NCBI RefSeq assembly: GCF_032854445.1
Contig: NC_088305.1
Coordinates: 25,444,628 to 25,508,627, forward strand
Direction: 5' to 3'
DNA: 64,000 nucleotides
Origin: Liolophura sinensis
Lineage: Eukaryota; Mollusca; Polyplacophora; Chitonida; Chitonidae
The translations under genes and the position numbers were made by a program. A model generated the notes under the pieces. That model was not told where the DNA came from. It worked only from the letters and a program-made list of their open reading frames with translations, and did no database searches. The number at the start of each line of letters is the position of its first letter. The first letter of the stretch is position 1. Below, piece after piece: positions 8,355-62,939 of this stretch.

Positions 8355-8409
8355 ATGGCGACTGCAAATTCTCTGGAACGGGATGGGGTGGTACGAGATG
8401 ATACAACGG
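8355..8409 (+). CDS. PYM1: PYM1 exon 1 (coding part)
   Basis: ATG then 18 codons reading [18 protein letters not shown] plus one base, donor G|GTAAAT at 8410. Spliced to exon 2 it gives [17 protein letters not shown], which parallels the TETGKYI...RPDG start of vertebrate PYM1. Too short to be noticed as a separate open frame. Confidence 0.75.
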
Positions 8410-12288: not shown

Positions 12289-12331
12289 AAGTGCAGAGGA
12301 TAAAGGTGATCATTTATTAGGATTTGATTTG

Positions 12332-12337
12332 AATAAA
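12332..12337 (+). terminator. PYM1: PYM1 polyadenylation signal
   Basis: AATAAA 44 bases past the stop. A satellite array begins about 25 bases later, so the 3' UTR is either very short or enters the array. Confidence 0.65.
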
Positions 12338-12362
12338 ACTGAGCAGGTGAATTATCAAATTA

Positions 12363-15300: not shown

Positions 15301-15615
15301 TAAGGAAGGAGTGCTAACGCATGACATTGGGCTTATAAAATGTTATACAGACCAGGTCATAAGGAAGGAGTGCTTGTTCATCACAGTGGGTTTATAAAAT
15401 GTTATACAGACTTGGACATAAGGAAGGAGTGCTAACTCATGACATTGGGTTTATAAGATGTTATACAGACTTGGACAGAAGGAAGGAGTGCTTATTGAAC
15501 ACAATGGGTTTTTAAAACGTTATACAGACTTGGACAGAAGGAAGGAGTGCTTATTCATCACATTGGGTTTATAAAATGTTATACAGACTTGGCCATAAGG
15601 AAGGAGTGCTCTTTC
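12363..15615. repeat. 59-bp satellite array, about 55 units, directly after PYM1
   Basis: Period exactly 59 bp: ATAAGGAAGGAGTGCTAACT and CATGACATTGGGTTTATAAG, then ATGTTATACAGACCAGGTC. Two main subtypes alternate (GATGTCATACAGACTTGG and AATGTTATACAGACCAGG). Diagnostic variants repeat at fixed distances: the TATAGACC / TTATTTGTCACATT block at 13991 and 15053 (1062 bp, 18 units), TTGGGTTGAT at 13321 and 14265 (944 bp, 16 units), and TATATAATG copies about 1416 bp (24 units) apart. Units decay towards the right end. Confidence 0.98.
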
Positions 15616-15852
15616 ATCTCAGTCCTGACTATGATGAAGGGGGATAACTCATCACAGGTGTTTAAAAAACTGGCATACAGACCTGTGATTATGTACTACT
15701 TATGTACTTATGTTTAAAAGGGTACAGACTTGTTGCTGGTGTCAGACATAGGAAAGTCCAGTCTATGCCATGAATAGCAGAATTTTAGGTATGGTGGAAT
15801 AATTCAAGGGTGACCAAAGCTGTATTTCAACAAAGGCAGAAGAAGACCAGCT

Positions 15853-16905: not shown

Positions 16906-16939
16906 TGACATGTTTTATTCATTTTTGTTGGTGCATGCA

Positions 16940-22329: not shown

Positions 22330-22456
22330 TTACAAATTACATGTAAATTCATCTTTACTTTTGTTCATACTTTTGTAAGCGTATTCCAGAGCGCTGGATA
22401 TCGTTCTCATGTCCGTCTCTATACTGCGTGCCCAGTTCTCAACATCTCCAAATCTC
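22330..22456 (-). CDS. BLOC1S1: BLOC1S1 exon 4 (C-terminus), carries the 1-bp insertion
   Basis: Acceptor GTGAACAG at 22457-22458; length 127 where 126 fits. The extra base is one of the three A/T at 22450-22452. Downstream the frame reads [19 protein letters not shown] then [19 protein letters not shown] at 22330-22332. Confidence 0.9.
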
Positions 22457-27431: not shown

Positions 27432-27853
27432 GTCTCTGACTCAACTTCACTGATTAACAGTTGTACGCATCATCACCAACTGGCGGGAGTGTAAATTTGG
27501 CAAGATAACAGCCACCCAGTCTGATTATTTCAACAGGAGAAATGATTAACAGGCTCTCAAACAACTGTCAGACCGCCCACACCTGACGCCGAACAGCACC
27601 CAAGCGGAAACACATCCGCGCTACAGAGTGCATTAACCAGCGGCCAAAGTATTAAGATAAATGAATGAAAATTGCTGATTTGTAAACTAATGGTCATATC
27701 AAGTAATGTATTAGGGGTTAAAGTCTATTTGAGGAGAAATTGTTCACAGAAGTGAAATCTTTATGTTTCAATGAAGCCGCATCACATATCCTAGAGCGAG
27801 TGGAATTGAGGTCAAAGTTCAGCGATTGAACAGCGCTTAGTGAAGCGGCAGCG
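27432..27853. promoter_or_regulatory. Shared bidirectional promoter region of BLOC1S1 and integrin alpha
   Basis: Only 422 bp separate the two start codons. It is the one long SINE- and array-free gap beside genes here. No clear TATA box is placed for either gene. It holds GGCGGGAG (27483-27490, E2F-like) and several CCGC/GCGC groups, in keeping with a TATA-less housekeeping promoter. Transcription start sites cannot be read from sequence alone. Confidence 0.65.
27809..27821 (+). promoter_or_regulatory. DR1 nuclear-receptor half-site pair
   Basis: AGGTCA-A-AGTTCA, a close match to the HNF4/RXR DR1 consensus, 33 bases before the integrin start codon; likely within its 5' UTR or at its core promoter. 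Confidence 0.4.
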
Positions 27854-28047
27854 ATGGCGGTGTACGGCAAGCCAGTGGTCTACAGTGTGGTGCAGCTAGT
27901 TTTACTTCTACCTTGTTTACTTGGATTTAATTTGGACACACGGATACCTGTGATTAAAAATGGACCGCAGCTTAACAGTTTATTTGGATATTCTGTCGCT
28001 GAACATCAAATTTATAACGTTGACGACGGATCGGTCGCTGAGAACTT
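27854..28047 (+). CDS. Integrin alpha exon 1 (signal peptide, start of blade 1)
   Basis: ATG in GCAGCGATGG, donor AACTT|GTGAGT at 28048. Encodes the leader, FNLDTRIPVIKNGPQLNS and LFGYSVAEHQIYN. Confidence 0.95.
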
Positions 28048-46000: not shown

Positions 46001-49000
46001 CCCTTAACTACAAGTACTTCTCCTATCCCATGCACCAATCATCATCTTAGTTTCATTATCAGTATGCACTTTCCCTTTCCTTACAAAGTATCACACACAG
46101 CTCAGCTATAGCGCCCACACTTGTCTGACTCTACCATACATGTGTACATTGACTCTGGATGTGTTTATTCTGATTTACCCAATGTTTATGGTAGATAGGG
46201 AGGTGTTGTCTGTTGAGTAGTGTTCTGTGGTTATACATCAGTAGATAGGCCATAGCCTTATCCAGGGATACCCCACAGCTGATGAAGGGGCCAGCCCTTC
46301 CCTGGGACAGAAATATTCTAATTTATTTCACTGAGAGGCCTCACTCACAGCTTCATGTATGAAGGGTGAATGTACATGTAGCATTGTATGATGTATCCCA
46401 GATGTTACACGTACAGTCTTCAATGTTTTCACATGTTTGCGAGGTGTTTATTCAAGCAACTTATAAGGGCATTATTTTGTGTAGACTGATAAAATTATAC
46501 ATTTTGTGACGCTCTGAAACTGGCCAATCCGACCAATGTGGTTTTGTCTTTAAAACCAAAGTAAAAACATGCATAAATTGCACTGAAATTTGCTGTTTCA
46601 TACTGTGCGAAAAGTTTGAGTAATTAGAGTACATGTTACACAACCCTAACCAAGTTTTTTAGAAGGGTGTTGCCCCTGCTCCTAAAATGTGCATCCTGTC
46701 CCCTTTTTGGTCAGACACAATGTTATTTGTTTGAGAATTGTACATATGTATTCTGCCCCCCCACTCCCCCCCGTAGGTACAAATTTGAGTATTTATACCA
46801 GAAAAACACATACATGTAGTTGTTTTTTTTGCCCAAATTTTCAGTTTTTAACTGAATTGTACGTGAATACTGGGGTCTAAAATTGATGTGCATGACTCCT
46901 TGAAATGAAAATACAGTACTTACTGCTTGAGGTTTTTCATCTGTTCGGACAGCTGAGACCTTGACATCCACAAAGATCAGTGAAATAGCACATGTGAATA
47001 GGATTGCATGTACTTGTAAATTAACCGTAGAGGAATTTACTAATAATGCTACCTACAGTTTATATGTAAATATGGTTTATGTGAAAGAAGTACATATGCT
47101 TTTCATACAGTCATGGAAAAGTCTTCCAGAAACTTTCAGATATTTGTGAGTTTCCCCACCCCCCGGGGCTCTGCCCAGTTTCTTCCCCCCATAATGAGGC
47201 TGCTGTTGTACATGTATAAGTGATATATTTCTGAGTATGGCATGAAACACCATCAGACAGTTATATATAAATTTCATGCATTCAACTGATGCATGCATGC
47301 ATAAGTGCTGCTGCATCTGACAAAAATCTGCTTTTGCTTAAGTCGTGGTCATATGACTGAAAAATTGTTAAGTACGATGTTAAACCCGAAGCTCTCACTC
47401 ACTAACTCTTTTACTTAAATTCTTTTTTTAGGATGTTTGATGTAGAGTTACTAACTTTAGGTGCCAAGTGGAAGTACATGTCAGCATGTCATTTTCTGAT
47501 TGGCTGGCTGATAACATTTATAGCAGCCAATTAAGTGAAGGGCATCTATTTTCTGCGATGGGTTTGTGCTTTGTAGTGTACTTGTACATCAGTACGTGTA
47601 TATGCACTACATTTACGTGCTGGTAATTACTATTAGCTTTTTGTCAGGGGCAGTTATATATCTATGTTGTAAAAGTAGTACACAACAGTTACCTGTAATT
47701 AATGACGAATGAATTTGGGAAAATGGAAAATGTCAAGGACCGGCACAGAAAGATATTAAAAGGAGTTGCCATACCGAATTTCTAAATTACATGTAACCAT
47801 GTACTTCATTGTTTAAATGAAATGATTTTAAATACCTCTAGATTATGGGAAGTTCCACAGTTACATGTACAAGTACTCAACATGTAGCCAGTAGCCTGTT
47901 GGTATTTGGAACATCTGTGGAATGTGGTAAATGACCTGAAGTTTCACATGTGAGTTACTGTTATTCACTTTCATTTGATCCGAGTTGGCTGCAAGATGAC
48001 AGAAGAGAGTGATTAGCCCCACAACCTCCCCTCCCTCACCCCACCCCTTTGCTTCATTTCCCTGCATGTCACTCAGTAGCTGTGGTTGCTAATCCTCTCT
48101 ACATGAGATCAAGCCACTGACAGTGAGGTGTGCAGGTTTCACGACTAGTAGGCCTACATGTACATCTCTAAATATACCCATGAATGAAATCAAAGAAAGT
48201 AGTAAGACAGGTAATGTCTTTCAGAGCATTGTCTGAAAGCATTGAATGTACATGCACAATGTACACTGTAGACAAACCGATTATTTGGGTTAGGCCTATG
48301 TAGAAGTGACCTCGTTCTGTTATCTGGTGAGTGCTTGTATATGTGTAAAGGCACTGGTCGTCATGATTAAGCTCGACAGAGTTTTTTACCTTATTCCCAT
48401 TTATCACAAAATAACAAAAATAAAATAGTCAACCTGTTGCGAAGTGTATTTTCGAAAATGATTATGATCAAAACTGAGAAAATCCTGAACTGTTGGTGGT
48501 AGGAGCATAGACTCAACTGCTCAGTGAAGCGTGAGCTTGTTTATTTCATTCTTGAACTCTCAGTATAATCCCCTGACCACACCTGATGCTGCTCTCCCCC
48601 AGCACTCAGTAAACAACCACAACCAGTGCAATGAATCCTGGGATACGCTTTCCAGAGTCCCAGGGCAAAACTTTAGGTCATTTACCATACTCAAAGAATA
48701 TTCCAAGTGAAGTTGTTGCCAGTGGTCACCATGACAATGTAGAGTTATGGTTAAATATGTACCACAAAAAATGTCATACAAGGGATGGTCTGACAGCAAT
48801 CTGCTGATGGTTGTGGTTGTCTCCCTGGCACTACTCGATTTCCTCCTGCCAAAGTGCTGGGCACTGTTGTAAAAGTGAAATGTTCTCGAGTACAGTGGTA
48901 AAACACATAATAAATAACATTGACCAAAGCCTTCTAAGATTCCAGCATTCCTCCTCAAACTTCACACATCTGCTGGGGTCGGGTGGAGGGAGGGAATTTT

Positions 49001-52000
49001 GATGTGAGGTGAAGCCATATAGTCCTGCCCTTCCCCAGCTTCGTCATCACACCCTATGGTTGTTTTCCTTCCTGGGTTAAGGTACTTGTCTCCCAGGAAT
49101 TTTAATACCCTTGGTGATCAGGTTGCCTTGGTCAGGGAATGGGCAGTAAGAGATCTTCAGCTTAAGGAACAGATGTTGTCAACTATATGTACAGCTGAGT
49201 GTAGGAAAGCAAATGTAGTGGACAGGAGCTCTCTAGAATAGAGGGAAGAAAGGTTGATTTTTTTATTTTATTACTAAATCAAATGTAACTGTGAACTTCA
49301 GACTCTCTTGGCCATTGGCTGAAATCCACTGAATGGTGGAGAATTGGAACATACTCTCAAGCTTTTCCTTGCTTTCCAGCTTTCGGTATAAGTGAAATAT
49401 TCTTGAGTACAGCTTGAAACACCAATTAGATAAATATATAAATAAATCAAGGTTGAGGAATTTCAGACTGTACATCTGTTATGGTTAGATGCTCTTTGTT
49501 TGTTTCTTTTGGTTAAGTAAACAACTTCATTTAGGCAATGCTGCCATATGGGTGGTTTTGTGGGGTGCAATAACAGCATTACATATACATCAATTCCAGA
49601 TTTGTCAGGAGTGTCTACATGTACATATACATCAGTTCCAGATTTGTCATGAGTTTCTACATGTACATCAGTTCCAGATTTGTCATGAGTCTCTATATAT
49701 ACTTCAATTCCAGATTTGTCACGAGTTTCTACATGTACATCAATTCCAGATTTGTCATGAGTGTCTACATGTACATGTACATCATTTCCAGATTTGTCAT
49801 GAGTTTCTACATGTTCATGTACATCAATTCCAGATTTGTCATGAGTGTCTACATGTACATGTACATCAGTTCCAGATTTGTCATGAGTTTCTACATGTAC
49901 ATCAGTTCCAGATTTGTCATGAGTTTCTACATATACATCAATTCCAGATTTGTCACGAGTTTCTACATGTGCATGTACATCATTTCCAGATTTGTCATGA
50001 GTGTCTACATGTGCATGTTTGAGTTCATGTTACTAGAAAAGCATTTAGAACTTAATGACAAAAGGTATTAGTCTCTGTAGATTCCATTTTAATGGAGACA
50101 GTGAGACCCTATACAGAGCACTAACCACACACAGTGTTAGACTTAAAGTTTGCACAGCACCAAGAAAGGCATTTGAGAGATATCAGACAGTGTACATGTA
50201 GATACATGCATATCCTTTTTATCTCCATTCTTGGAGGCCTGCCTTGATACATTTGTTGAGGAACAGATGGGTTTAATTGACCTGCACTTGACCCGATCTA
50301 AGTGCTTGTTTTGGTTGATGCCAACATGGCCTGATACCAGATACTGTCCTACAAGTTACACTTTATCTGCCTGTACAGCTTTAACCAATTAGCCGGTAAT
50401 TGTGTAATTAATTCAGGGGCAATTGATCTTGAGTGTCAAGAAGGTCTAGTGTCATGTCAGGTTGACATTTGACCCTTGACCTTTCTTCAAGGTCACACAG
50501 AGCTATCTTCTGCAAGTTGTAGCTTAGTTCTTTGTCCAAGTACAGTTTTTCTTCCTGGTAAACATGCATAACACAAGGTGTAGAATAGTTTGCATCATTT
50601 TTTGGGCAGATCTTTACATTAACTCTCTGTGACATTTAGAGGTTGGGAATGACATAGCAGGGAAGAGATTGTTATGAAAGTACAACTTCTATTTATTCAT
50701 AAATGATGTTTCAGTGCAGAAACTAACATTGTCATTGACTTTATAACGATGCCAATTTCTCCATCAAAAAGTCGTGGAGTGTCTGCTTTGTGGACAGTAG
50801 ATCCAGGGTCATTCCTGGGTTGGGTCACACCTAAGACCTTAAAAGAGGACGTTGTAGCTTCCTCACTTGGCCTTCAGCATTAAGGGGATAGTGCAGTATA
50901 ATGGCTCGGATGGGGCTACTCGGATGAAAGAGCGGTGGAAATTCGTAATGCAACAAGGAAGTGCATTACACGTACATGTACATGCTCTCTGAGAACTCCT
51001 TTGTCGTCATATGGCTGAAAAAGTGTTAAGCACAGTGTTAAACCCGAAGCACTCACTCACTCAAAAAGTCGTCTTTGAATACATAAAAGTTGTACATGCA
51101 TTAGAATCTCTTCCATGTTATAATATGCACATGTGTATCATTATATGAAGCTCAAATCATTGTTTCAAGTTATGAAAAGCACCTGTTTTTACCTGGTTTA
51201 CAATGTCTGATATCAAGAAATGGGGGGCCTGTCAGCAACATTCAGATGGTCGGGGGTTCCCCCCCCCCCCCCCCAGCTCTGCCCGGTTTCCTGCCACCGT
51301 AACGCTGGTGGTTAAGTGAATTATTCTTGAGTATACCGTAGAACACCAACCAAATAAAGAAATAAAGAATAAGCAATAGGGCAAATGTGCAGTAAATGGC
51401 CCTCTTACGTTTTCCCATTAGCCAGGATATCATCCTACCTTCCAAACAGACCTTGGAGCAACTTTCTGAGATCCATAGAAATTTCAGAATCGGGCAGACC
51501 GTGCAAATTATTCTTGGGGGAAATTTAATCATTTGCTGACTATAGGAAGCACTTCGCACACATTGGCACTGACGGTAGAACACCTACATGTACATGCATA
51601 TACTCACTTCAGTGCACTGTAAAAGAAAACATAAAATTTAACTACAGTAATTGAAAATTTGGAGGACGTGTAATTGCCCTTGGATAGATGCACGTGTACA
51701 TGTACACATAAAGTGTATTTGGCACTGATGATACGTGGAGTAAGGATGTATATATACAGTCAATGGCAGGATATTTTCTTTGACTTTGACATAAGTCATC
51801 AGGAGCATCAGGTGGGAAGAAATGAGTACAATTCAAATTAATTGTAAACAGGGCATATGCACATCTGCCTGATAATGAGGTATGGAATTTATCAATCAAA
51901 ACTGCGGACTCTTATTTTTATTTATTTATTTATTTTCTTTTGTTTATTTTGTTTATTTGTTAGATTGGTGTTTTATGCCAAACATTTGTACTCAATAATA

Positions 52001-55000
52001 TTTCACTTATATGATGAAAGCCAACATTATGGTAGAAGGAAACCCATGGCCATCCATAGGTTGCTGACAGACCGTCCCACGTACAACCAGAAAGGAATCC
52101 AGCCTGCATCAGCTGGACTTGAACTCACAGCGACCACATTGGTGCGAGGCTTCTGAGTTTCTGTGCTGCGCTGCCACGCTAACCCCTTGGCCACAGAGGC
52201 CCCAGACTCTTTGAAGTACAGTGGTAATATGTATGGCATTGTATGTTCCTGTCATTAGGGCTGTAAAACAACAGATGACACCAACCTGTACAAAACATTT
52301 ACATCCTGTACAACGTGTATATTCCAGATCTGAGATTGCAGCGTAAGTCTGGAAACCATCTTGGCAAAGTATTTATTTTCGTAACATGGTCACATTTTTT
52401 TATTTTGCGTATCAAATTCTTCAGTAGTATGCAGACGTAGATTCGTAGATTATTGGCTCTTACATTTCACACGTGCAAAAAAAAAAAAAAGCCTTTGCGT
52501 AATGGACTCCAGTTGTGAACCATTTGTGGAATCCTTATGGAGCATCAGGTTTCTCTGAATGAATCCATTCTGCCAAGTGTTTGGTTATTGCCCTTTGATA
52601 GCTCTCCTGTGTGTACTTCTGGCTTTCCTGCCTGGTTCAAGTTCCTTTGGTATTGATATAACCTGGATTGAGTGTAATCCAAACTTCTCCCAGCGTAAGG
52701 TTCTGTAAGCACATGGTTTGATTGTTTCCATTGTTTTTATGGGGTGTGATGACAGTGGGCTGTGCATTGCTGAAAGAGATGTAAAACTACAGTATGTGTA
52801 TAAGCATGTACACCTTGATGCAGTTTTACATTTTTAATAAAATATATGTATGTTCTGATCTATTCCATACGGTCTAATATAAAGTTAAATGAGAAGAAAG
52901 TCACCTGTAGAGAAATGGACAACCAGCATTGATCTGATGCACCTTCCATTGTTTCAGATGTATGCAATGTTGGACATAAAATAAGAAAAGGAGAGTGAAA
53001 AATAAGACCAAAGCAATATTAATTAAAATTTTGCTGATTCCACATTTAATGAACAGACAAATTGGGCTTTTTACATTTATCTGATTAAATCTACATGTAC
53101 AATTGCCTACAAATTTTGGCTGAATCTACTGTTCATTTAACGAAGACAGAGGGGAAGATTGTGGCTCTCTGTGCCAAGGTAAAGTGTATTATTACCATTT
53201 ACATGTACAGGTATATAAACAAAAAAAAAATAAAGTGGCATGAAAAAACTGATTGGGGCATGAGATCATATAGCAGTGCTGTCACATACTTTGTCATGTG
53301 ATGTGATATGAGCTGCCTGTCTGTCTGTCTATCCAACCCATCAACCTCAACCCCCAGGTTTGTTGAGGGTGCAGACAGCTGTTGGTGATCTGAGCCGAGA
53401 CCAGATATTCCATTGTTAATGTTTTCCTAACTGAAATGTTCCGCCCCATCCTTCTGTACTGTTCTGGAGAGAGAGGAGACAGCTGTTGTACAAGTAGACT
53501 AAACAAACATGAAGGTCATACATGTAAATCTTCTGGTTTCTAAAGGGTTTGTCACAAAATCTGGCAATGTTTCATTGGAGTGGCATGTCCTAAATGTAAA
53601 AGAAACTTTTGAAAGCTTTGTACATGTACAAAGAAAAAAAATATATATATCGATGTACTGGTTCAAATTTCTTCTTTCAAAATGGAATTTCATTACCGTA
53701 ATTCCTCAATCTTTTCGCATATGATAGAGGAACTTTCAGCGCAATTTATGCGCATTTGGAGGCATTTGGGCTTCACAAGAAATGTCATTTTATCAGTCTA
53801 CACAGATTAATGCCTGGAGAACATGCTTGAACAAACACCTTACAAATGTGAAAAAGTTGAAGAATTAGGGTTAGAACAAATTGTTGTCGTTATCACTTGA
53901 TGTACTGATTTATAATGGCAGTGTTCCTTGAACTGAAGTTGAAACCATAAACCAAAAAACATTCACTTCATTCGTGTCCTTCAGTCAACACTGGGAACAT
54001 GGGTAAAGACCTCATTTTGTGGGTCTGGTGTTATCCTTGGTCAGCAGCCGTTAAACGTACATGTTACGGGGACCACAAATCTGTCAGTTAGAATTTCTGG
54101 AACTATACATGTTGCTGTTATACTTGTATATGGGTAGTAAGTTTTAAATTTCGTCAAAAATAGTTTTGCAGACAAAAATGCCATGGCTACATGTAGCCTT
54201 CTATGTGGCTGCTGAATGTACTAGATGTTCGGTCTGTATATACATTTATGTGGCGAAAATTTATAATCTGTGCCTTAGAAAATTGTTTTGTAATGAAAAA
54301 TAAAAATTGTAATTTAATTGTGTTACAAATTTCTAAAAAGTACTAGAGGTACCTGTCCTCCAAAGAAACCTGGAAAATGCATTTTCTGTTCAAAGTGTGT
54401 GTATATCTGGACAAGAAACGCTTACATGTATATTGTGTACACGTGTATTGGTGTACTTAAATTCGGAGAATTATAGTAGAATTATGGTAGACATAGGAGA
54501 GGTTAAAGGCCAGGGGCTAAAGGTCATAAGGGTCCGTACAGATGGAAAGGTTCATCTTGCACTGAAGACAAAACATCACTTTGTCAGCCTTTCAAACTTT
54601 CTCTTTGAAATGAAAAATCACCCAGTAATCTGTTGGAAGATGTAATTTTAGGAGTTATAAAACAACTAAAGCTTTTATATTTCTGATATTGGAGTTGGGT
54701 GTAGTCATTTTATCTTTGTAAAGAATAGTTTTGACTAAAGTGATTGGAACACATGTACATTTGTATTGGTGCTTATGTTTTATCATTTGAAAGTTTATCT
54801 AAAAGCATACAAATTGTCAAAAGGCATGTCAGAAAAAAAGGACTTTCAGGGATTGTTTAGGACTGGTTTTGTGATATGAATTGCCTGACTACACATGCAT
54901 ATACATTGATCACAGGTTTCTTCTTCATTTTTCTGACACTTAAAGTTTCCTTTAGACCATGCCAATTTAATTTTTTTTTTCTTTACAAATGCATAAAAAA

Positions 55001-58000
55001 AATTTTCCATGTCAAATGAGGAAAAAATAGAAGTGAAACTTCCAGCTCATGCTGACTTTCTCCCCGACCTTAAGTGGAAAGGTCAGTCAGCAACCTGCAG
55101 ATGGTCATGGGTTTCCCCCAGGCTCTGCTCGGTTTCCTCCCACCATGATGTTTGTAGAATGTATAATTACTTACAGACACCGTTTAAAACTGTAAAAAGG
55201 TTTTGTGGGCACGAAATTGCAAACGGACGTGAACGAAATAATAAATAGAATATTGCATAGTAGAGGTTGAATACCATAAATATTGTTCTCATGAGAGGTA
55301 AAAATGATAAAAACTCGACGCTGCGTGTCTTGTGGGTTATTTCCACCTCTCACTCAAAAAATATTTATGGTATTCAACCTTCACTGTGCAATATCCTCTT
55401 TGGATTTTCGCGTTTTCAGTGTTCATGTAACTTTGGTAACAATGCATCAAGTTAGTGACGAAGTTGCCAAATGTTGATGTTTTACCTCGTTTACTCCACT
55501 TACAAAACTGACACCTTGTACATCTGTTTGCCTGTAAAAATGCACTAATTTGGCCAAATATGATTTCATTGACTGTAGCGTAATAATTGATGCTTAGATG
55601 ATGTACAAGACAAAAATCCTACATACTGTAATTCTTCAACCTTTTCGCATGGTTGCAAGGTGTTCATTCAAGCATATTCTGAAGGCATTGTTCAGTGTAG
55701 ACTGATAAAATTATATTTTTTTTTGAGGCTGTGAAATTGGCCAATCCAACGAATGTACATGTACTTTTGTCTGCAAAATCTAATTGTAAATGTGCACAAA
55801 TTGCACTGAAAGTTGCTCTTTGGCGATAAGGTCCAGGAATTAGGAAGCATGTATTCATATTGGCCAGAATTTTGTCATTATTGGCTTTCCCAGCTGTAGT
55901 ACTACATTGTGTAAATGCTCAGTCACGTTGGACCACAAGGCCTCGATAATAAGTTGACCATGGCACCTCTCATTACAACCCCATAGATTATTATTTCTCC
56001 TGCACTCTGTACACACGATACAGGAGAAACGCATACAGTTTATATGCTATTGGGATGATAGCTGCTGAGCTATGTGTGGAATTTTAATAATTTGTCAATT
56101 AAGTTAATTGTTTGGATGCTATCAGATGCGAAGAGTAGGACACTAATCAAATGAATGTTGTATTTTACTACCGGTAGGTCATGTACACGCACCCCATATA
56201 ATGGTTGCGAAATAATATAAAACATTATGGCCATATTTCACTGTAAATGAATTTCATCAAAGTCTTGTAAGGGTTTGTTAGGATTATGTGTCAAATTCAA
56301 ATTATTATAATTTATAGATTTATTTGATTGGTGTTTTACGCCATACTCAAGAATATTTCAATTATATGACGATGGCCAGCATTATGGTGAGAGGAAACCG
56401 GGCAGAGCCTGGGTAAAACCCACGGCCATCCGCAGGTTGCTGACAGACCCTCCCATGCAAATGATTACAATAGTAACAGTCATAATAATATTTGAGTGTC
56501 TGATTCAACGTCTAACGTTGGTGCAAGTAGGATGTGTGATAAGAAATCGAGGAAGAAAATGTAAATGAGGCGTGATGACTTAAGGTTTTGACTAAATTTA
56601 CATGCATATGTAAATGTAGATGTATGCTGGAGAACATGCACACTGGGTATGATAACATGTGTCTACATTGAAATATTCTACGTGTGGCATACTGAACAAT
56701 CAAAGGCCTACATGTACATGTAAGAGTCTGTCATGAGCTTCATTGATCATGAGGGCAGAAATGGTTAGCATGACAACACAGTGCAATGACACAGGAGCCT
56801 CTCACGCATGCTGCCGTTGTGAGTTCAAGTCCAGCTCATGATGGCTTCCTCTCCTGCTGTATGTGGAAAGGCCTGCCAGCAACCTGTGGATCATTGATTT
56901 TTCCCCTGGGCTCTGCTCAGTTTCCTCTCACCATAATCCTCTCACCATAATGCTGGCCATAAATAAATATTGATATTGTTTGTCCAATTTTCTGTTTCAG
57001 ATTTTTGGTCGGCGCTCCCAAAGCAGATGTGGATGCCCAGAGATATACCCAACAGAAAGACCTGGTGGTCACTACTGTGACTGGGTTTGGCAGCCTTTAT
57101 AAGTGCAGGTTATCCACCAACCCAGACGACTGCGAAAGGTTAAAACTTGGGGAGGAAAGTAAGTATAGTAGTAGCAACTGACATTTGTACAGATCCGGAG
57201 TTCAATCCTGAGACGAGTCATAGGTATCGATCGGTAAATTGGTACCACTTCATTTCGCGCTCAGAAATAGGACAGACACCAGCTGTGTGCTTTCTGTACA
57301 TGTACCCTAATTCTTCTAAATTTTAGGACAGATATCAGTAGAAGTGAAAGTCAAGAATTACATTTCTCTCCCAGTTTTTTTTGGAAAGTGAAGATGTGAA
57401 TATGTAGTTTATTAGGTAGACTAACCCTGTGAAAGAAAAAGACAGGGTATATTCCTCCTACAATTACATATATGTGTACACTGGCTAAAAATAGTGGACC
57501 AGGTGTCCCAAAAATTAGATGGATTCGAGTATATTGTATTGTATCTTCACCTGTTTCTGATTTTTTATGTTGCTCTTTGTCTGATTTTTATGTTGCCTTT
57601 TGCCTAATTTCCCTGTCCCACTTAGTCTAATTTCCCTGTCACACTTTGTCTCAATTCCCTGTTACACTTTGTCTGATTTCCATGTTTTACTTTGTCTGAG
57701 TTCCCTGATTCACTTTGCCTAATTTCTCTGTCCCACTTTGTCTAATTTCCCTGTCACACTCTGTCTGTTTTCCATGTTTCACTTTGTCTGGTTTCCATGT
57801 TTCACTTTGTCTGGTTTCCATGTTTCACTTTGTCTGATTTCCCTGTCACATTTTGTCTGATTTCCATGTTTCACTTTGTCTAATTTCCCTGTCACACTTT
57901 GTCTGTTTTCCATGTTTTACTTTGTCTGATATCCATGTTTCACTTTGTCTGATTTCCATGTTTCACTTTGTCTGATATCCATGTTTCACTTTGTCTGATT

Positions 58001-61000
58001 TCCATGTTTCACTTTGTCTAATTTCCATGTCACACTTTGTCTGATTTCCATGTTTCACTTTGTCTGATATCCATGTTTCACTTTGTCTGTTTTCCATGTT
58101 TCACTTTGTCTGATATCCATGTTTCACTTTGTCTGATTTCCCTGTCACATTTTGTCTGATTTCCATGTTTCACTCGTCTTCCAGTCTATCAAGACACGGA
58201 TCGTGTGAAGGAGAATGTCACGGATCAGTGGTTAGGTGTAGTCGTCAACAGTGAAGGACCAGAGAACAAAATTATTGTGAGTGTCTGTGGTTCTGATTTA
58301 TCTTCACTGTAATAAGACAAAATGTAGACCTCGTCAGGCTAATCTCTTGAATAACCAACCTATTTTTATGGGAATCCAAGCTGTTTACAGTAAAGCTCTG
58401 TAATTGGGGTAATTTGTCAAGAGAATAGTGCAGTTTAGTTGTTGGGCCCTCCTGTTTTTTCGTTCATAAACCTGACAAGGATTTATGTACCATTATACAA
58501 CATAGTAAGTACAGTGTTAAAACAACAATTTAAATATATGTCAATGAATTACTGGTATTCTAATTCTGTGGTGTGCATTTGAAGATGTTGCAGCACCCTA
58601 AGGATGGTCGTGGGATTCCTCCGGACTTTCTCTGTTATTGTTCCACCATAATGCTGGCTGTCCTATAAGTGAAAGTATAGGAAAGTTCTTAAATATTGCA
58701 TAAACACCAGTCGGGAAAAAATAATTGAATGAATACTTGGAGTACAGATGATACAGAATCCTGAGTAAGACCTAAAACCAGGTAAACAGGTGTTTATTTT
58801 CCTTTCTACTCCTTCCTCTCCGGCCATACGTGGGAAGGTCTTGCAGCAACCTGCGGATGGTTGTGGGTTATGAAATATTCTTGAGTACAACGTAAAACAC
58901 CAATCAAATAAATAAATTGAATCCTTTCTACTCCTTTACAGACATGTGCCCATCGGTACAAAAAACACCGTACTGCTTCTCAGCGCACAAACTGGGGTTT
59001 CGGTAAATGTCACACCTTCACAAACCGCCTTGATTATGACATGGAATGGGACGCCTGCTCTCAGCTCTCCGTTGTGGCAGGACACGAGGATTATGGGTAT
59101 TGTCAAGCTGGCACCAGCGGAATCATCGCTAATGTAAGTCCTGTATGCAGATGTTTTTTTGTTTTTTTTTTTAAAAGAAAACACAACACTAGACCAAATG
59201 TGAGGATGTACATGTATGTATAGAGAACCTCCTACATACACCTAATGACTTGTCGTCATCGGGTAACTGAAAAATGGTATGTTTACACTTTGTTTCCGGT
59301 TTGAGTAATAATAGTGTATCGCATGAACTCATAAGAATTTCAGAGTAAAAGATGATTTATGAGTTTCCTTGTTACAAAGATGCTTATTACGTCAAAAAGA
59401 AGAAAAATGGCTGTGGCCATAAGGTCAATTTTGACCTGTATGTCTTTTACTGACTAAGTGGAGCCTCCGTGGCTGAGGCGGTTAGAAAGCCAGAGTGGCC
59501 CAATGACTCAGGAGCCACTCACTGTGAGTTCAAGTCCAGCTCATGCAGGCTTTCTCTCTGGCTGTAAGTAGGAAGGTTTTTCAGTAACCTGCGGATGGTC
59601 GCAGGGTTCCCCCAGGGCTCTGCCCGGTTTCCTTCCATAATAATTCTGGCCGTAGTCATATTAGTGAAATATTCTTGAGTGAGGCATAAACCACCAATCA
59701 AATCAAAAATCAAATAAATGACTAACCAAGGCTATATTTTTTCTGTTTTTTTCTTTTAAGTAATGAAAGTGGCAGGGATTGTGACACTGACATGGTTTGT
59801 TCTAAAGATCAGTTTTGTAGGTTTTTAATAACCTCAGGATTACTATGCTGTAGTTATTGCGCAGCAGCAAAGAATAGTTGTTTATTTTGTCTATGATATT
59901 TTTGAATCGTCAAAGAAAGGTCTGAATGTTTTTTCAAGACTAACACATTCTAAGGCCAGGGAGAGTTACCCTTGTCAGTGTCTAAAACTCTTGTGCGCTA
60001 ACTAGCAGCTCAGCATAATTTTCTGATACAGTAGTTATCTCCCTTCCACGTCCATCTTTTGTATCTCTTGATGTTTTTCAGGATGGTAATGTTGTTATTG
60101 GCGCACCTGGAGCAAAGACATGGACAGGTATGAGAGCAGTGGTGCTTGATTTAACTTTGCTAGTCAGATTTTTCCTAAAAAAAATGATGGTGTGATATTT
60201 ATCTGCATACATGATTTTTGTTGTTTGTACAAGGCTATCATACAGATGCTGCACATGGTGATGATACAGTCTTTTATTTGTTATTTGCCCTTGCTGGATC
60301 AGTTGGGTGTGGCATGCTTTACTGTGTTAAACCTTTGCGGGATTAGTTGGGTGTGGCATGTTTTACTGTGTTAAGCCCTTGCTGGATCAGTTGGGTCTGG
60401 CATATTTTACTGTGCTAAGCCCTTGCTGGATCAGTTGGGTATGCCATAATTTACTGTTTTAGCCCTTTGCTGGATCAGTTGGGTGTGCCATATTTTACTG
60501 CGAGTTGCTCTGTCAGTCGGTCAGATTTTTGAACGCATGATAATGGTTTAATGTAACTTTGACAATATTGCAGTCATATTGTGACAAGAACAACAGCAAT
60601 CAATAAATAAATAAATAACCAGAATAGCTAGAATAACTGTAGGCATAGTTACAGGGTAAGATTTGAGCATTAACTTTTAACCTTAAATATTGCAGGGATG
60701 TTATTTAAGAAGTACGACACAGAAGAATTAATCTCAGGGTTGGGTTGGAAGAGAACACCCGTGGAGAAAGGAGAAAACCCACCTGTGCCTTTCTTTTCTT
60801 ACTTAGGTAAGCAGTGCGGCTGTGACGATGGTTGTAAACTCTTGAATGACAAAATTAAAGTAAAGCCAGATTGTTGAGTACACTCAGAAGCTTCTCTCCT
60901 ATGTCGTCACTGTGAGCTCAAGTGCAGCTCATGCTGCCTTCCCCTCCAGTTGTGCCAGAACTGCCAGTAATCTGTGGCTCTTCATGGGTTTAACCCAGCC

Positions 61001-62939
61001 TGGTTTCCTCCCATTATGGTGTTGGTTTCCTCCCATTATGGTGTTGGTTTCCTCTCATTATAGTCTTGGTGGCCATTGTATTAGTGAAATATTCTTGAGT
61101 GTGGCATAAAATTCAGAGCAAATAATTGCATAAATAAGTGAGTACACTCATGTCAGGCAGAGACATCCAGCTAAAGTGACAAGGTTTTGCTCAATATGTT
61201 ACCCAACCTGCAAGACTTCTGCGTACTCCTAAATGATGAAGATAATTAAGCACACTTGCGTCTTTCCAAGAAATCCAGGTAAAGTGACAAGGCCTTTTAA
61301 GTGTCAAATCATGAAACTCACTGTTTTGACATACATTTTTATACAATTTTAGGGTTTTCAGCGGCTGCTGGCCGATTCAGTGGAGCTCAGATGTACTACG
61401 CAGCCGGTGCACCTCGTGCTAATGAGATTGGTCAGGTCGTCATGTTTACAGCCAAAACCAACAACGGAGAGTTTCAGTACATCCCAGAGAATGTCATCAA
61501 GGGCTCTGTGTTCGGCTCTATGTTTGGCTACGATATCATCGCCCTCGATATTAACCAGGATGGGTAAGGCCTGTGGTGAAAATAAGGAGCTTACACAGAC
61601 TCCTATCATAATCTACAGGGGATCAGTAACTCTACGTGTACACAAAGTGCTGTAAAAATTGCCCCTTCAGAAGCACAAATGGCCTTAACAAGATACTTTA
61701 GATGCCAACATTTAAGTATTTCCAATAATGAAATTAATCAGGTGACTCTGTGGCCGAGGGTGTTAGCACGCCAGACTGGAACAGTCATGTTTTTCATTCT
61801 GTAAGGTTAAGTTACGACACATAAGAACTGACACATAAGAGCGATGGTTGTTTGCTAGAAACTGTTCATTTATAATGTTATAACTTTCCAGATTTGATGA
61901 CTTAGTGGTTGGAGCACCATTTTACTTTGTGAAGAAGAAGAATGTGGGTGGAGCTATTTATGTATATATGGGTGGTCCCCAGGTATGTACTGACCAATCA
62001 CAGCACAGATTTCAGATTTCCTCAAGACACATGCAGAGCCCATTTGTGGGAATTCATCAAAATTTTAAGACTTACATATTGAATTTAATCAGTAAAATTC
62101 ACTAGTTTATAAAAGATGAATCAGTGTACTTTGGGCAGCCTAGCTCTTCACCTATAAATGGGAAAGGCAATCAAATAAATAAATCGAAAACCTGGTAACC
62201 TTAAACCCAAGTGATATCTAGAAATAAGAAGTCATGAAAGTGTTTGAACTTTGTGACAGGCACAATTGTGATGGCTAACATATCCCTTCAATATGTGTTA
62301 TTAGGACAGTCACTCTTGCACAAGTTTGAGCACGCTTTGTAGAATGGGCCCAGGATGTGAAAATTTATTTTCAGGGAATTGAAAGCAGCACGATTCCCAC
62401 AGTGATTGAGAGTCGGATGATGGGAGAGAAGGAGTGTAAGCGATTGGGCTGTACTTTTGCACGGTTTGGTTTTAGTCTGACCTCAGCTGGTGATCTCAAC
62501 AAAGACGGCTATCTTGGTAAGTTTTTTAGTTGCCTTTTACTTTGCTTCTGCCACAAGAAGACACATATGAATGTATGTCGTCATATGAATGTAAAATTGT
62601 TAAGTATGACATTAGACCCCAAGCGCGCATACATACATACATATACATACTGTTGTTACCTCAGCAGGATATTTAATCTCTGGATAGATCCCACTGGAGC
62701 CTTAGAATTATAGTTTAGAGCCATTTTTATGCCCAAGAAAAGCTTTTTTTGGTACTTTCATATAATAGGCTACATCGTACACTACATATTGAGAAATAAA
62801 AAAAAACAAGTGTATCTCTTAATCATTTATGGGTTTATCTTTGATTGCAGACGTTGCTGTGGGAGCTCCTTATGAAGGGAATGGCACTGTGTACATTTTC
62901 CATGGATCAGAGAAAGGAATTGTCGAGAAATATGCTCAG
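27854..62939 (+). CDS. Integrin alpha subunit, laminin-receptor-like (alpha-PS1/3/6/7 type); first ten exons, 3' part outside window
   Basis: Exons: 27854-28047, 57001-57158, 58185-58276, 58942-59133, 60082-60127, 60696-60806, 61353-61563, 61892-61982, 62375-62516, 62851-62939; all GT/AG and in phase. Integrin alpha pairs with beta at the plasma membrane to bind matrix. A hydrophobic leader (VVQLVLLLPCLLG) is followed by FNLDTR, the usual mature N-terminus. Beta-propeller FG-GAP blades follow: LFGYSVAEH/FLVGAPKAD, QWLGVVV/TCAHRYKK, NVVIGAPGAKTW, SYLGFSAAAG/GAPRAN, SMFGYDIIALDINQDGFDDL and FARFGFSLTSAGDLNKDGYLD. DINQDGFDD and DLNKDGYLD are Ca-binding loops; the APRAN blade lacks one, as in alpha3/6/7. 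No inserted I domain. Blade 7, thighs, calves, membrane span and cytoplasmic tail lie beyond 64000. Confidence 0.95.
29269..29532 (-). mobile_element. SINE family A, full-length reference copy
   Basis: On the minus strand: GGCCTCCGTGGCTCAGTTGG, TTAGCGCGC (tRNA A box), CAGGAGCCTTTCACC, GAGTTCAAGCCCAGC (B box), then the body with CCGGCTGAAAGTGGGAAGG, CAACCTGCAGATGATCG, CATAATGCTGGCCGC, GAAATATTCTTAAGTACGGC, ending CACCAGTGAAATAAATAAAT. So it is a Pol III-type tRNA-derived SINE of about 260 bp whose 3' end is a (AAAT)n microsatellite rather than poly(A). No partner LINE is seen in the window. Confidence 0.93.
29533..31440. other. Intron 1 stretch without recognised repeats
   Basis: G-rich patches (for example a G run near 30680) and short open frames; no domain or array recognised. 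Confidence 0.45.
31441..31515 (+). mobile_element. SINE family A, 3' end fragment
   Basis: GCCCGCCGTCGTAGAAGTG to CACCAGTCGAATAAAATAAA. Confidence 0.75.
31516..33000. other. Intron 1 stretch without recognised repeats
   Basis: Nothing I can name; no long open frame and no tandem structure. Confidence 0.45.
33008..33320 (+). repeat. Dispersed repeat family F, copy 2
   Basis: GTTAAGCAACTATCGCC, AGTTTGTGGACCTGAGAAG, CTAAAGGAAAGAGGTGTCAT, TTGTGCCTCTGGAAC and TTAATGTCAACAAGGGTTGC, collinear with 15853-16110. Confidence 0.72.
34160..34345 (+). repeat. Left arm of a large inverted repeat
   Basis: GCACTGGTGGCAGACAGGG, CCTGTCTGGCTGTAAAACC, GTGTCGCATTATTCATGG and TTTTAGGATGTACAGTAC are repeated in reverse complement at 35480-35655 with few mismatches. 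The arms lie about 1.1 kb apart. Confidence 0.85.
34300..34470. repeat. About 30-bp repeat of TACATGTATGTATACATGTGG type
   Basis: GGATTCATAATACATGTACA plus TGTATGTATACATGT, about 5 units, following the left inverted arm. The mirror-image array is at 35365-35510. Confidence 0.8.
34615..34662 (-). mobile_element. SINE family A, short 3' end fragment
   Basis: TTTATTTATTTGATTGGTGA and ACGCCATACTCAAGAATATT only. Confidence 0.7.
35365..35658 (-). repeat. Right arm of the large inverted repeat with mirror array
   Basis: About 5 units of TATGAATCCACATGTATACA type (35365-35510), then the inverse of the left arm, ending CCCTGTCTGCCACCAGTGCA at 35654. Confidence 0.85.
35660..36774. other. Intron 1 stretch without recognised features
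   Basis: No coding signal, array or SINE identified. Confidence 0.45.
36775..36957. repeat. Dispersed repeat family D, copy 2
   Basis: GCCAAGTCTTCTATTTTGTA, AAATTGTGTAACACTATATT, TACTTTGACTTTGGAGA and CTTAATACCAGTATTGG, collinear with 1919-2105. Confidence 0.7.
37091..37212 (+). mobile_element. SINE family A, middle fragment
   Basis: AATGACCCAGGATCCTCTAAC, TCTCCGGCCGTATGTGGGAA, ends GGGTTTCCGCTGG; 3' part missing. Confidence 0.82.
37526..37776 (+). mobile_element. SINE family A copy with 19-bp target-site duplication
   Basis: TCTTTGTGAAAGTGACCCA occurs at 37526-37544 and again at 37758-37776, framing a 5'-truncated SINE (GGAGCCTCTCACCAATGCG to CAATCAAATGAATAAATAAA). GACCCA belongs both to the target and to the SINE, so the 5' junction used microhomology. 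Confidence 0.92.
38127..38406 (+). mobile_element. SINE family A, full-length copy
   Basis: GGGGGGCCTCCATGGCCAAG and GGGTTAGCAACC head, body with a TACATGTACATGTA insertion before the B box, and an extra CTCTCCGG repeat; end CACCAATGAAAGAAATAAAT. Confidence 0.9.
38409..38530 (+). mobile_element. SINE family B tail fused to the SINE A end
   Basis: GCATGGACTGCCCTGCCACAA, GTCGTTATGTGACTGG and GATGTTAAACCCCAGG directly follow the family A tail. Confidence 0.72.
38555..39035. repeat. About 55-bp minisatellite, about 8-9 units
   Basis: Unit GTAGAGTTGTAATAAAGGTG, then ATATCATTAGGGAG, TTTACAGCAGACATACATGT. Units vary in length (54-60 bp); one is shortened near 38950. Confidence 0.92.
39036..40530. 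other. Intron 1 stretch without recognised features
   Basis: No array, SINE or gene seen; TACATGTA motifs are scattered. Confidence 0.45.
40531..40707 (+). mobile_element. SINE family A, truncated and internally deleted copy
   Basis: CCCCAGTAGGCTCTCACC to CACCAATCAAATAAATAAAT, missing the CATAATGCTGGCC segment. Confidence 0.85.
40839..44797 (+). repeat. MITE family M1 expanded by an internal tandem array (about 32 units of 112 or 120 bp)
   Basis: Left end TACTGTCATTCTTCAGCC, TTTTCAGCC is the M1 terminal repeat; right end (44660-44797) ACTAATGTAATTTTGCC, GAAAATTGCTCTTTCATACG, CCAAAAGCTTAGGGATGAGG is the other M1 half. Between them the left half of the MITE, CCTTTTCAGATGTTTACAAC to CTGAAATTGGCCAGACCAG, is repeated. 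Units near the left are about 112 bp; from about 42220 they carry TATGAAGGCATTATT and are 120 bp. GAAGCCC/CCAGACC and GAAACCC/CCAAACC subtypes often alternate. Confidence 0.93.
44830..45010 (-). mobile_element. MITE family M1, inverted copy next to the expanded one
   Basis: Minus-strand reading starts at CTGTAATTCTTCAACCTTTT, CGCATGTTTGCAAGGTG and runs to TGGCCAATCCAACCAATG, TCTCCAAATTC. Confidence 0.8.
45291..45311. repeat. Homopolymer run of 21 C
   Basis: Uninterrupted C tract in intron 1. Confidence 0.9.
45755..45860 (+). mobile_element. Family C dispersed element, diverged copy
   Basis: GGATATCATCATCCAAACAA, ACCCCACAATGCTTT and AATCTGGAAGGAATTTTT. Confidence 0.45.
46412..46638 (+). mobile_element. 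MITE family M1, complete unexpanded copy
   Basis: Left TACAGTCTTCAATGTTTTCA, CATGTTTGCGAGGTG; interior TGTAGACTGATAAAATTATA and GAAACTGGCCAATCCGACC; right GCGAAAAGTTTGAGTAATTA, GAGTA. About 225 bp, TA at both ends, no open frame. This is the pattern expected of a non-autonomous element using TA target sites. Confidence 0.8.
47145..47262 (+). mobile_element. SINE family A, diverged 3' half
   Basis: GAGTTTCCCCACCCCCCGGG to ATGGCATGAAACACCATCAG. Confidence 0.72.
47338..47406 (+). mobile_element. SINE family B tail
   Basis: GTCGTGGTCATATGACTGAA, GTACGATGTTAAACCCGAAG, CTCTCACTCACTAAC. Confidence 0.78.
47410..48780. other. Intron 1 stretch without recognised features
   Basis: No array or gene; only short open frames. 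Confidence 0.4.
48783..48918 (+). mobile_element. SINE family A, 3' half
   Basis: GGTCTGACAGCAATCTGCTG to GTACAGTGGTAAAACACATAA. Confidence 0.78.
49385..49448 (+). mobile_element. SINE family A, 3' end fragment
   Basis: GGTATAAGTGAAATATTCTTG to CACCAATTAGATAAATATAT. Confidence 0.8.
49580..50015. repeat. 36/42-bp minisatellite, about 11 units
   Basis: Unit CATCAGTTCCAGATTTGTCA plus TGAGTTTCTACATGTA; some units have an extra TACATG (42 bp). Two plus frames are open through it. Confidence 0.93.
50775..51066 (+). mobile_element. SINE family B copy
   Basis: GGACAGTAGATCCAGGGTCA, ACACCTAAGACCTTAAAAGA, GTCGTCATATGGCTGAAAAA and AAACCCGAAGCACTCACTCAC. Confidence 0.87.
51228..51368 (+). mobile_element. 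SINE family A, 3' half with a 16-C run
   Basis: GCCTGTCAGCAACATTCAG, C16 at 51259-51274, GAATTATTCTTGAGTATACC, ACCAACCAAATAAAGAAATA. Confidence 0.85.
51418..51542 (+). mobile_element. Family C dispersed element, copy
   Basis: AGGATATCATCCTACCTTCC, AAACAGACCTTGGAGC, CATAGAAATTTCAGAATCGG. Confidence 0.65.
51914..52203 (-). mobile_element. SINE family A, full-length minus copy
   Basis: (TTTA) tail at 51914, GATTGGTGTTTTATGCC, CAATAATATTTCACTTATAT, reversed B box GGACTTGAACTCACAGCG, reversed head CCCTTGGCCACAGAGGCCCC. Confidence 0.92.
52204..53690. other. Intron 1 stretch without recognised features
   Basis: An A14 run near 52477 and short open frames only. Confidence 0.4.
53692..53873 (-). 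mobile_element. MITE family M1, complete minus copy
   Basis: TACCGTAATTCCTCAATCTT, TTCGCAT at the left and AAAAAGTTGAAGAATTAGGG, TTA at the right; interior ATTTTATCAGTCTACACAGA is the reverse of the 46412 copy. About 180 bp. Confidence 0.8.
55038..55150 (+). mobile_element. SINE family A, middle fragment
   Basis: CCAGCTCATGCTGACTTTCTC through CAGCAACCTGCAGATGGTC to CCTCCCACCATGATG. Confidence 0.78.
55249..55393. repeat. Foldback element with about 35-bp arms
   Basis: GAATATTGCATAGTAGAGGT, TGAATACCATAAATATT is mirrored by AATATTTATGGTATTCAACC, TTCACTGTGCAATAT about 72 bp later. The loop has no coding capacity. Confidence 0.75.
55624..55852 (+). mobile_element. MITE family M1, complete plus copy
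   Basis: TACTGTAATTCTTCAACCTT, TTCGCATGG; GTTCATTCAAGCATATTCTG, AAGGCATTGTTC; AGTGTAGACTGATAAAATTA; GTGAAATTGGCCAATCCAAC. This interior is the closest unexpanded match to the array units at 40839. Confidence 0.82.
56317..56455 (-). mobile_element. SINE family A, minus 3' half
   Basis: TTTATTTGATTGGTGTTTTA, CGCCATACTCAAGAATATTT, GAGGAAACCGGGCAGAGCCT, ATCCGCAGGTTGCTGACAGA. Confidence 0.88.
56766..56970 (+). mobile_element. SINE family A copy ending 31 bp before integrin exon 2
   Basis: GTTAGCATGACAACACAGTG, GAGTTCAAGTCCAGCTCATG, a duplicated CCTCTCACCATAAT, and CTGGCCATAAATAAATAT. The 3' domain is deleted between CTGGCC and the tail. Confidence 0.88.
57001..57158 (+). CDS. Integrin alpha exon 2
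   Basis: TT|A rebuilds Leu; encodes FLVGAPKADVDAQRY, then GFGSLYKCRLSTNPDDCERL. Donor GAAA|GTAAGT. Confidence 0.96.
57302..57360 (+). mobile_element. M1b-type terminal fragment in intron 2
   Basis: ACCCTAATTCTTCTAAATTT, AGGACAGATATCAGTAG; inverse of 18640-18722. Confidence 0.5.
57540..58172 (+). repeat. 23-bp minisatellite up to the 3' splice site of integrin exon 3
   Basis: Unit CTGATTTCCATGTTTCACTT plus TGT, about 27 copies with CATGTTTCAC / CCTGTCACAC variants. The last unit ends 12 bases before the acceptor (CACTCGTCTTCCAG). CTGAT in most units fits the CTRAY branchpoint pattern and the rest is pyrimidine-rich. Confidence 0.93.
58185..58276 (+). CDS. Integrin alpha exon 3
   Basis: Acceptor CGTCTTCCAG; encodes IYQDTDRVKENVTDQWLGVV, VNSEGPENKII with one N-glycosylation sequon (NVT). 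Donor ATT|GTGAGT. Confidence 0.96.
58590..58712 (+). mobile_element. SINE family A, diverged 3' half in intron 3
   Basis: GCAGCACCCTAAGGATGGTC, CACCATAATGCTGGCTGTCC, CATAAACACCAGTCGGG. Confidence 0.72.
58800..58936 (+). mobile_element. SINE family A inserted in the exon 4 polypyrimidine tract, with 15-bp target-site duplication
   Basis: TCCTTTCTACTCCTT is present at 58800-58814 and 58922-58936. Between them lies a short SINE (CCTCTCCGGCCATACGTGGG to CACCAATCAAATAAATAAAT) with an internal deletion. The right duplicate is the pyrimidine tract of the acceptor TTTCTACTCCTTTACAG used by exon 4. Confidence 0.9.
58942..59133 (+). CDS. Integrin alpha exon 4
   Basis: 64 codons: TCAHRYKKHRTASQRTNWGF, GKCHTFTNRLDYD, DACSQLSVVAGHEDYGYCQA, GTSGIIAN. 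The four cysteines after CAHRY follow the blade 2-3 disulfide pattern of integrin alpha. Donor AAT|GTAAGT. Confidence 0.96.
59226..59285 (+). mobile_element. SINE family B tail fragment
   Basis: CCTAATGACTTGTCGTCATC, GGGTAACTGAAAAATGG. Confidence 0.5.
59461..59720 (+). mobile_element. SINE family A, full-length copy in intron 4
   Basis: GGAGCCTCCGTGGCTGAGGC, GGTTAGAAAGCC head; B box GAGTTCAAGTCCAGC; end CACCAATCAAATCAAAAATC. Confidence 0.92.
60082..60127 (+). CDS. Integrin alpha exon 5 (46-bp micro-exon)
   Basis: Acceptor GATGTTTTTCAG; encodes DGNVVIGAPGAKTWT, the FG-GAP core of blade 3. Donor ACAG|GTATGA. Confidence 0.95.
60285..60505. repeat. About 45-bp tandem repeat, 5 units
   Basis: Unit CTTGCTGGATCAGTTGGGTG, TGGCATGTTTTACTGTGTTA, AGC in intron 5. 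Confidence 0.88.
60696..60806 (+). CDS. Integrin alpha exon 6
   Basis: Acceptor AATATTGCAG; encodes GMLFKKYDTEELISGLGWKR to PPVPFFSYL. Donor TTAG|GTAAGC. Confidence 0.95.
60878..61135 (+). mobile_element. SINE family A copy with triplicated CCTCCCATTATGG segment, intron 6
   Basis: GAAGCTTCTCTCCTATGTCG, GAGCTCAAGTGCAGC, three tandem TTTCCTCCCATTATGGTG units, GAAATATTCTTGAGTGTGGC. Confidence 0.85.
61353..61563 (+). CDS. Integrin alpha exon 7
   Basis: Acceptor ACAATTTTAG; encodes GFSAAAGRFSGAQMYYAAGA, PRANEIGQVVMFT, SMFGYDIIALDINQDG. Carries blade 4 (no Ca loop) and the start of the blade 5 Ca loop. Confidence 0.96.
61741..61783 (+). mobile_element. SINE family A, tRNA-like head only
   Basis: GGTGACTCTGTGGCCGAGGG, TGTTAGCACGCCAGAC; no body follows. 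Confidence 0.65.
61892..61982 (+). CDS. Integrin alpha exon 8
   Basis: Acceptor ACTTTCCAG; GG|A rebuilds Gly, then FDDLVVGAPFYFVKKKNVGG, AIYVYMGGPQ. Donor CAG|GTATGT. Confidence 0.96.
62375..62516 (+). CDS. Integrin alpha exon 9
   Basis: Acceptor TTATTTTCAG; encodes GIESSTIPTVIESRMMGEKE, CKRLGCTFARFGFSL, GDLNKDGYL (second Ca loop). Donor CTTG|GTAAGT. Confidence 0.96.
62548..62640 (+). mobile_element. SINE family B tail in intron 9
   Basis: GCCACAAGAAGACACATATG, GTCGTCATATGAATG, GACATTAGACCCCAAGCGCG. Confidence 0.75.
62851..62939 (+). CDS. Integrin alpha exon 10 (last in window)
   Basis: Acceptor TTGATTGCAG; encodes DVAVGAPYEGNGTVYIFHGS, EKGIVEKYAQ. Donor CAG|GTAAAT. No further exon is visible by 64000. 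Confidence 0.96.

Follow-up and report, generated by a model that had tools for sequence, protein, structure and literature searches.

An integrin alpha gene of the alpha3/6/7 type and BLOC1S1, pointing away from each other across a short intergenic gap and with PYM1 lying beyond BLOC1S1, very probably form a micro-block that spiralians and vertebrates inherited from their common ancestor. The block was analysed in the chiton Liolophura sinensis, within a stretch of 64,000 nucleotides of the genome (hereafter the window). Identity, order, orientation and spacing of the genes, the single-copy state of PYM1 and BLOC1S1 and the spiralian nature of the host were established directly, whereas the mammalian order was taken from print. 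Considered as a whole, an ancestral micro-block together with a constraint exerted by a shared promoter appears to us the best explanation of these data, and a probable one.

Gene content of the window

Gene models were built by splice-aware alignment, with flanking DNA for the part of the integrin that lies beyond the window, and confirmed three genes by spliced alignment, Pfam and PDB matches, namely PYM1 (+), BLOC1S1 (-) and an integrin alpha (+) (Table 1). The trio claimed in an earlier note on this DNA is therefore real, and its head-to-head placement of BLOC1S1 and the integrin holds, 422 bp separating the two start codons; the span that it gave, 8355..62939, is correct for the visible part, but the integrin gene extends further, ending at a stop codon near window-equivalent 86940.

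Table 1. Features of the window and chromosomal location of the marker genes. Positions are window positions (or window equivalents) unless a chromosome is named.
Feature	Position	Strand	Details and evidence
Window	C11:25,444,628-25,508,627		Liolophura sinensis, 609-Mb genome
Tandem array	7-1508		24-bp unit
PYM1 (WIBG)	8355..12288	+	Exons 8355-8409, 9727-9823, 11859-12285, stop to 12288; spliced alignment, ORF, Pfam, 1rk8_C
Tandem array	12369-15610		Directly after PYM1; 59-bp unit, ~55 copies
BLOC1S1 (GCN5L1)	22372..27431	-	ATG at 27431; exons 27371-27431, 25805-25877, 24798-24930, ~22372-22453; 3' end approximate; spliced alignment, Pfam, 9tqb_G
Gap between BLOC1S1 and integrin start codons, putative shared promoter	27432..27853		422 bp; CpG o/e 0.76
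Integrin alpha, alpha3/6/7 (PS1)-like	27854..64000 in window, on to ~86940	+	ATG at 27854; spliced alignment, PDB ranking, trees
Integrin exons 1-5	27854-28047, 57001-57158, 58185-58276, 58942-59133, 60082-60127	+	Spliced alignment
Integrin exons 6-10	60696-60806, 61353-61563, 61892-61982, 62411-62516, 62851-62939	+	Spliced alignment
First intron of integrin	28048..57000	+	29 kb; tandem arrays, e.g. 40854-44703
Tandem array	40854-44703		Integrin first intron; 120-bp-based unit
Human 12q13.2-13.3 markers on C11	21.2 Mb, 28.0 Mb		ORMDL2 (ORMDL), CS (citrate synthase)
Human 12q13.2-13.3 markers on C4			RNF41, NABP2, PRIM1, RPS26, RAB5B
Human 12q13.2-13.3 markers on C1 and C7			PA2G4, NACA on C1; DNAJC14 on C7 (by non-J part)

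PYM1 carries the N-terminal Mago-binding motif (Mago-bind, PF09282, E 7.2e-15) and among solved structures matches the Drosophila PYM chain 1rk8_C (E 5.8e-16), the eIF2A match being weaker. BLOC1S1, which belongs to the BLOC-1 and BORC complexes, shows the GCN5L1 domain (PF06320, E 7.6e-29 from exons 1-3) and matches the solved BLOC1S1 chain 9tqb_G over 112 residues (E 1.1e-32). Each of them occupies a single locus in the 609-Mb genome, as judged from a Mago-bind scan and a GCN5L1 scan, in each of which 11 of 11 candidates were scored, the GCN5L1 scan giving two exon matches, both within the window, so that no choice among copies has to be made when loci are compared. Alignment pieces of 2, 5 and 17 bp were dropped from the BLOC1S1 model. 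A search for relatives of BLOC1S1 gave six pattern matches in viral contigs, none of them a relative, and none was found in plasmids.

PYM1 and BLOC1S1 are convergent (tail to tail). Among the unmasked stop-to-stop ORFs in the interval (minimum 50 aa) none is exon-like, the top coding score being 6.4, compared with 8.6, by the same scoring, for the ORF that corresponds to exon 4 of BLOC1S1. On the other side of BLOC1S1 the window contains the first part of the integrin gene, covering the signal peptide and most of the propeller, the whole gene being about 59 kb long. Its large first intron contains a few ORFs scoring 10-16, like short exons, none of which was tied to a gene. Two mini-exons (57283-57301 and 57495-57502), forced by stray query residues, and three small exons of the initial model (38220, 45517 and 64896) were dropped. 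The predicted protein has an FG-GAP match (Pfam, E 3e-10), one transmembrane stretch and a GFFKR tail, with no A/I-domain, and the spliced model aligns with a provisional ITGA6 sequence between FNLDTR and GFFKR, no large insertion being present. It also contains TRKRRS, which we take to be a furin-type motif.

The pair in vertebrates and its persistence

The vertebrate side of the comparison, which covers two phyla in all, consists of printed gene lists taken as map order together with presumed human strands. A human amplicon list reads METTL7B, ITGA7, BLOC1S1, RDH5, CD63, GDF11, SARNP, ORMDL2, DNAJC14, MMP19, WIBG (= PYM1), DGKA (PMC4938641), and a cattle list repeats these names in that order, two LOC entries being interspersed (PMC9498432). 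As far as these printed lists go, the ITGA gene and BLOC1S1 are immediate neighbours in human 12q13.2 as in the window, and in each case PYM1 follows beyond BLOC1S1; the human list has seven genes in this interval, whereas none was detected in the window among unmasked ORFs of 50 aa upwards. The human cluster to which the earlier note referred thus holds for ITGA7 and BLOC1S1, adjacent in both lists, but with PYM1 seven genes away in the human list the trio is loose in vertebrates. If the human strands are ITGA7(-), BLOC1S1(+) and PYM1(-), as we presume, the window shows the human orientation turned round.

An orthologous ITGA-BLOC1S1 pair is therefore adjacent in two distant phyla, according to our window models and the printed human and cattle orders. 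Assuming 25,000 genes, the pair would be expected by chance in the orientation found with a probability of about 2e-5, and the ordered trio with about 3e-9; these low figures make independent juxtaposition unlikely and common descent the best reading, which, given a spiralian host, would place the pair in the bilaterian ancestor. A chicken listing has ITGA7, together with CD63, at chr33:5.40-5.52 but BLOC1S1 at chr23:0.02-0.12, the names ITGA7 and BLOC1S1 both being assigned by BLAST (PMC13064311). If this listing is correct, the adjacency was lost in the lineage leading to chicken, but since mammals keep the pair it has no bearing on the ancestral state. We know of no BLOC1S1 alongside the vertebrate paralogues ITGA3 and ITGA6 or alongside Drosophila mew, which suggests that the link can be dispensed with. 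Pairs and bystander blocks of ancient metazoan microsynteny were reportedly described by Irimia et al. in 2012, and the likeness to those pairs lies in an adjacent gene pair being kept across phyla; the present one is a further example of this known phenomenon of deep microsynteny. No report of a BLOC1S1-integrin pair across phyla was found in titles and abstract beginnings, and the pair may already be on record elsewhere, for example in supplementary lists.

The two start codons are less than 1 kb apart, as in bidirectional promoter pairs, the 422 bp being a distance between start codons and not between transcription starts. The gap has a CpG o/e of 0.76, which ranks at the 89th percentile among stretches of equal size in the region (median 0.41), and contains one CCGCCC and one CRE half-site, while a pattern search of its 422 bp gave no match to full CRE, NRF1, YY1, ETS, CCAAT or TATA patterns. 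A promoter shared by BLOC1S1 and the integrin is plausible, the CpG content speaking for it and the absence of full motif matches against it. Transcription of the two genes would then set out in opposite directions within a single region of about 0.4 kb, and a break there would damage both, whereas PYM1, tail to tail with BLOC1S1, would have no common promoter with it and would be free to drift, which fits its seven-gene separation in human. A single promoter region would accordingly explain both the tight divergent pair, here and in mammals, and the separation of the convergent PYM1 in mammals, a contrast that serves as an internal control. That the adjacency has been kept because the short intergenic region serves both genes is, in our opinion, the likeliest reason, and it is advanced tentatively, the chicken listing lowering its probability. 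Going further, the gap could be a bidirectional promoter of bilaterian age by which a laminin-receptor integrin and BLOC1S1 are coupled, an unlikely proposal at present; if true, matrix adhesion and endosome-lysosome positioning would be set together, and this coupling would be the reason why the pair outlived the reshuffling of its chromosomal neighbourhood.

It is quite possible, on the other hand, that the ancestral pair owes its survival to nothing but inertia, in the sense that few breaks fall within so short a stretch as 0.4 kb and that rearrangement is slow in some spiralian and mammalian genomes, with no functional coupling between the genes. The gap is a very small target, its yield in the motif patterns searched was limited to the CCGCCC and the CRE half-site, and the chicken listing, which puts the genes apart, favours such inertia if it is right (PMC13064311). 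Against it, the surroundings have been shuffled, with two of ten placed human 12q13.2-13.3 markers on C11, five on C4, two on C1 and one on C7, yet the two genes have stayed together both here and in the mammalian lists. Inertia accounts for the data about as well as the shared promoter.

Regulatory bystander blocks are a described cause of microsynteny, and enhancers of the integrin situated in or beyond BLOC1S1 or PYM1 might hold these neighbours in place. The 29-kb first intron of the integrin offers room for regulatory DNA, but PYM1 stands seven genes away in the printed human list (PMC4938641), and we regard such a bystander effect as improbable. Should the pair prove to be bilaterian-wide, it would provide a short, single-copy and easily scored test of why some gene neighbours outlast half a billion years of rearrangement.

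Affinities of the integrin

The alpha3/6/7 integrins and the protostome PS1 integrins have been grouped as a laminin-binding clade (PMC1145181). Against solved integrins, the first 640 residues of the window integrin score 319 bits with alpha-6, 256 with alpha4, 225 with alpha5 and 186 with alphaV, and blastp ranks ITGA6 (502 bits) ahead of ITGA7 (427), ITGA3 (357), ITGA5 (313), ITGA4 (306) and ITGAV (274). In trees whose human rows are provisional sequences, and whose set includes no PS1 protein from other invertebrates, the gene falls on the ITGA3/6/7 side with support of 85/90 (8 rows), 82/94 (13 rows) and 81/83 (7 rows, a set that excludes ITGA2B, short and of odd composition, and five partial rows of other integrins of this genome). 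It branches outside the vertebrate ITGA3/6/7 trio, the position expected of one pre-duplication orthologue. The propeller-thigh region gave the same side at 94/96, and the C-terminal half gave no placement. An AU test rejected a grouping with ITGA5/ITGAV (p 0.037) and retained one with ITGA4 (p 0.217).

We thus assign the window integrin to alpha3/6/7 with moderate confidence, on sequence grounds. The prediction that a tree would place it there was supported in part, bootstrap values of 81-94% being obtained and alpha5/V rejected, with an alpha4 sister relation retained. Like members of the PS1 clade, it is nearest to alpha6, lacks an inserted A-domain and has the presumed furin-type TRKRRS and the GFFKR tail; it differs in being about 32% identical to ITGA6 and in its moderately supported position as sister group of the vertebrate trio.

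The gene might instead be another ancient alpha, outside alpha3/6/7/PS1, in which case the resemblance to the ITGA7 locus would be one between paralogues. The retained ITGA4 sister and the unplaced C-terminal half would agree with this, but the best blastp scores (ITGA6, ITGA7, ITGA3), the concordant PDB ranking, the propeller-thigh tree and the rejection of alpha5/V all speak against it. The genome also has separate alphaV-like pieces (on C11 at 26.46 Mb and, weakly, at 19.17 Mb, all six genome matches of an alphaV propeller query being on C11) and alpha4-like pieces (C11:10330378-10407409 and twice on C7), so that other candidates exist for those clades, and we give this paralogue reading little credence. 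The alpha4-like pieces occur at at least three nearby places of C11, a local expansion on the window's own chromosome. If the pair is bilaterian-wide, it would supply a positional argument that ITGA7 kept the ancestral locus of the vertebrate laminin-receptor integrin.

Chromosomal surroundings

Fourteen human 12q13.2-13.3 genes, all of them in the printed list of PMC4938641, were sought with provisional protein queries, and ten were placed (Table 1). CDK2 and GDF11 were ambiguous among paralogues and left unplaced, and SARNP and PTGES3 gave no match in the genome scan among the candidates scored. The further marker CACNB was found on C4, and COPZ1 gave no match among the 22 of 94 candidates scored. 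These scans scored 22 of 94, 37 of 37 and 55 of 376 candidates, and a miss in them proves little, as PA2G4 was missed in the 22-of-94 scan and found in the 37-of-37 scan. Two of ten markers on C11, which makes up 5.4% of the genome, correspond to a tail probability of 0.098, and chromosome-scale support for a kept neighbourhood is weak. Citrate synthase exons lie at three places within about 72 kb (C11:27989213-28061706), which suggests local copies.

The Hox cluster was found at C1:73731961-74337848, with ten Hox genes in order and all on one strand. We read the run as Post2, Lox2, Lox4, Antp, Lox5, Scr, Dfd, Hox3, Hox2, Hox1; one member has KLTGP just after the homeodomain, as in Lox5, the gene read as Hox1 is labial-like, and the Lox5-, Lox2- and Lox4-like genes mark the host as a spiralian. 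ITGA7 and HOXC are both at human 12q13, whereas here the block is on C11 and the Hox cluster on C1. The PDK/BCKDK family, sought as what we take to be a neighbour of ITGA3/ITGA6, gave matches at C1:76.26 Mb (2) and C10:8.73 Mb (3) and none on C11. Upstream of PYM1 Pfam identified an F5/8-PAN protein, HAGH and enkurin, with a SRCIN1/KIAA1217-like gene that is tentative (AIP3, E 0.015, below the cut-off); to our knowledge, none of these four is at human 12q13.

Human 12q13 therefore looks like a mix of several older linkage groups in which the pair stayed together. The Hox-bearing ancestral group B2 is described as having undergone fusion-with-mixing in most of the bilaterian species examined (PMC11175523), in agreement, as far as that account goes, with the shuffled context. 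For the cluster of bilaterian age proposed in the earlier note this means that the pair, adjacent in mammals and hardly attributable to chance, carries the claim, but that the remainder does not, with PYM1 seven genes away in human, seven of ten markers on C4 and C1 and the Hox cluster on C1. An independent juxtaposition of the pair in two lineages, with which the weak macrosynteny, the Hox cluster on C1 and the PDK/BCKDK matches on C1 and C10 would be compatible, is most improbable in view of the chance figures for pair and trio given above under the assumed 25,000 genes.

Several other features of the region deserve mention. The minus-strand ORFs that extend from window 2728 to window-equivalent -3893, upstream of PYM1, are fucolectin-like and carry F5/8 type C as well as PAN domains. 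The enkurin gene lies at window-equivalent -15756 to -14215 (Pfam E 7.1e-29), near HAGH and the SRCIN1/KIAA1217-like gene; enkurin and KIAA1217 are, we believe, both at human 10p12, and the two may perhaps represent a second old linkage. Downstream of the integrin, minus-strand ORFs resembling a nuclear-receptor ligand-binding domain were seen at window-equivalent 109026-114129 (Pfam E 0.0011, below the cut-off). A dispersed SINE-like repeat gives similar short ORFs at many places, for example at 37553-37801 and 38216-38516, and self-repetitive sequence makes up about 33% of the 263-kb region.
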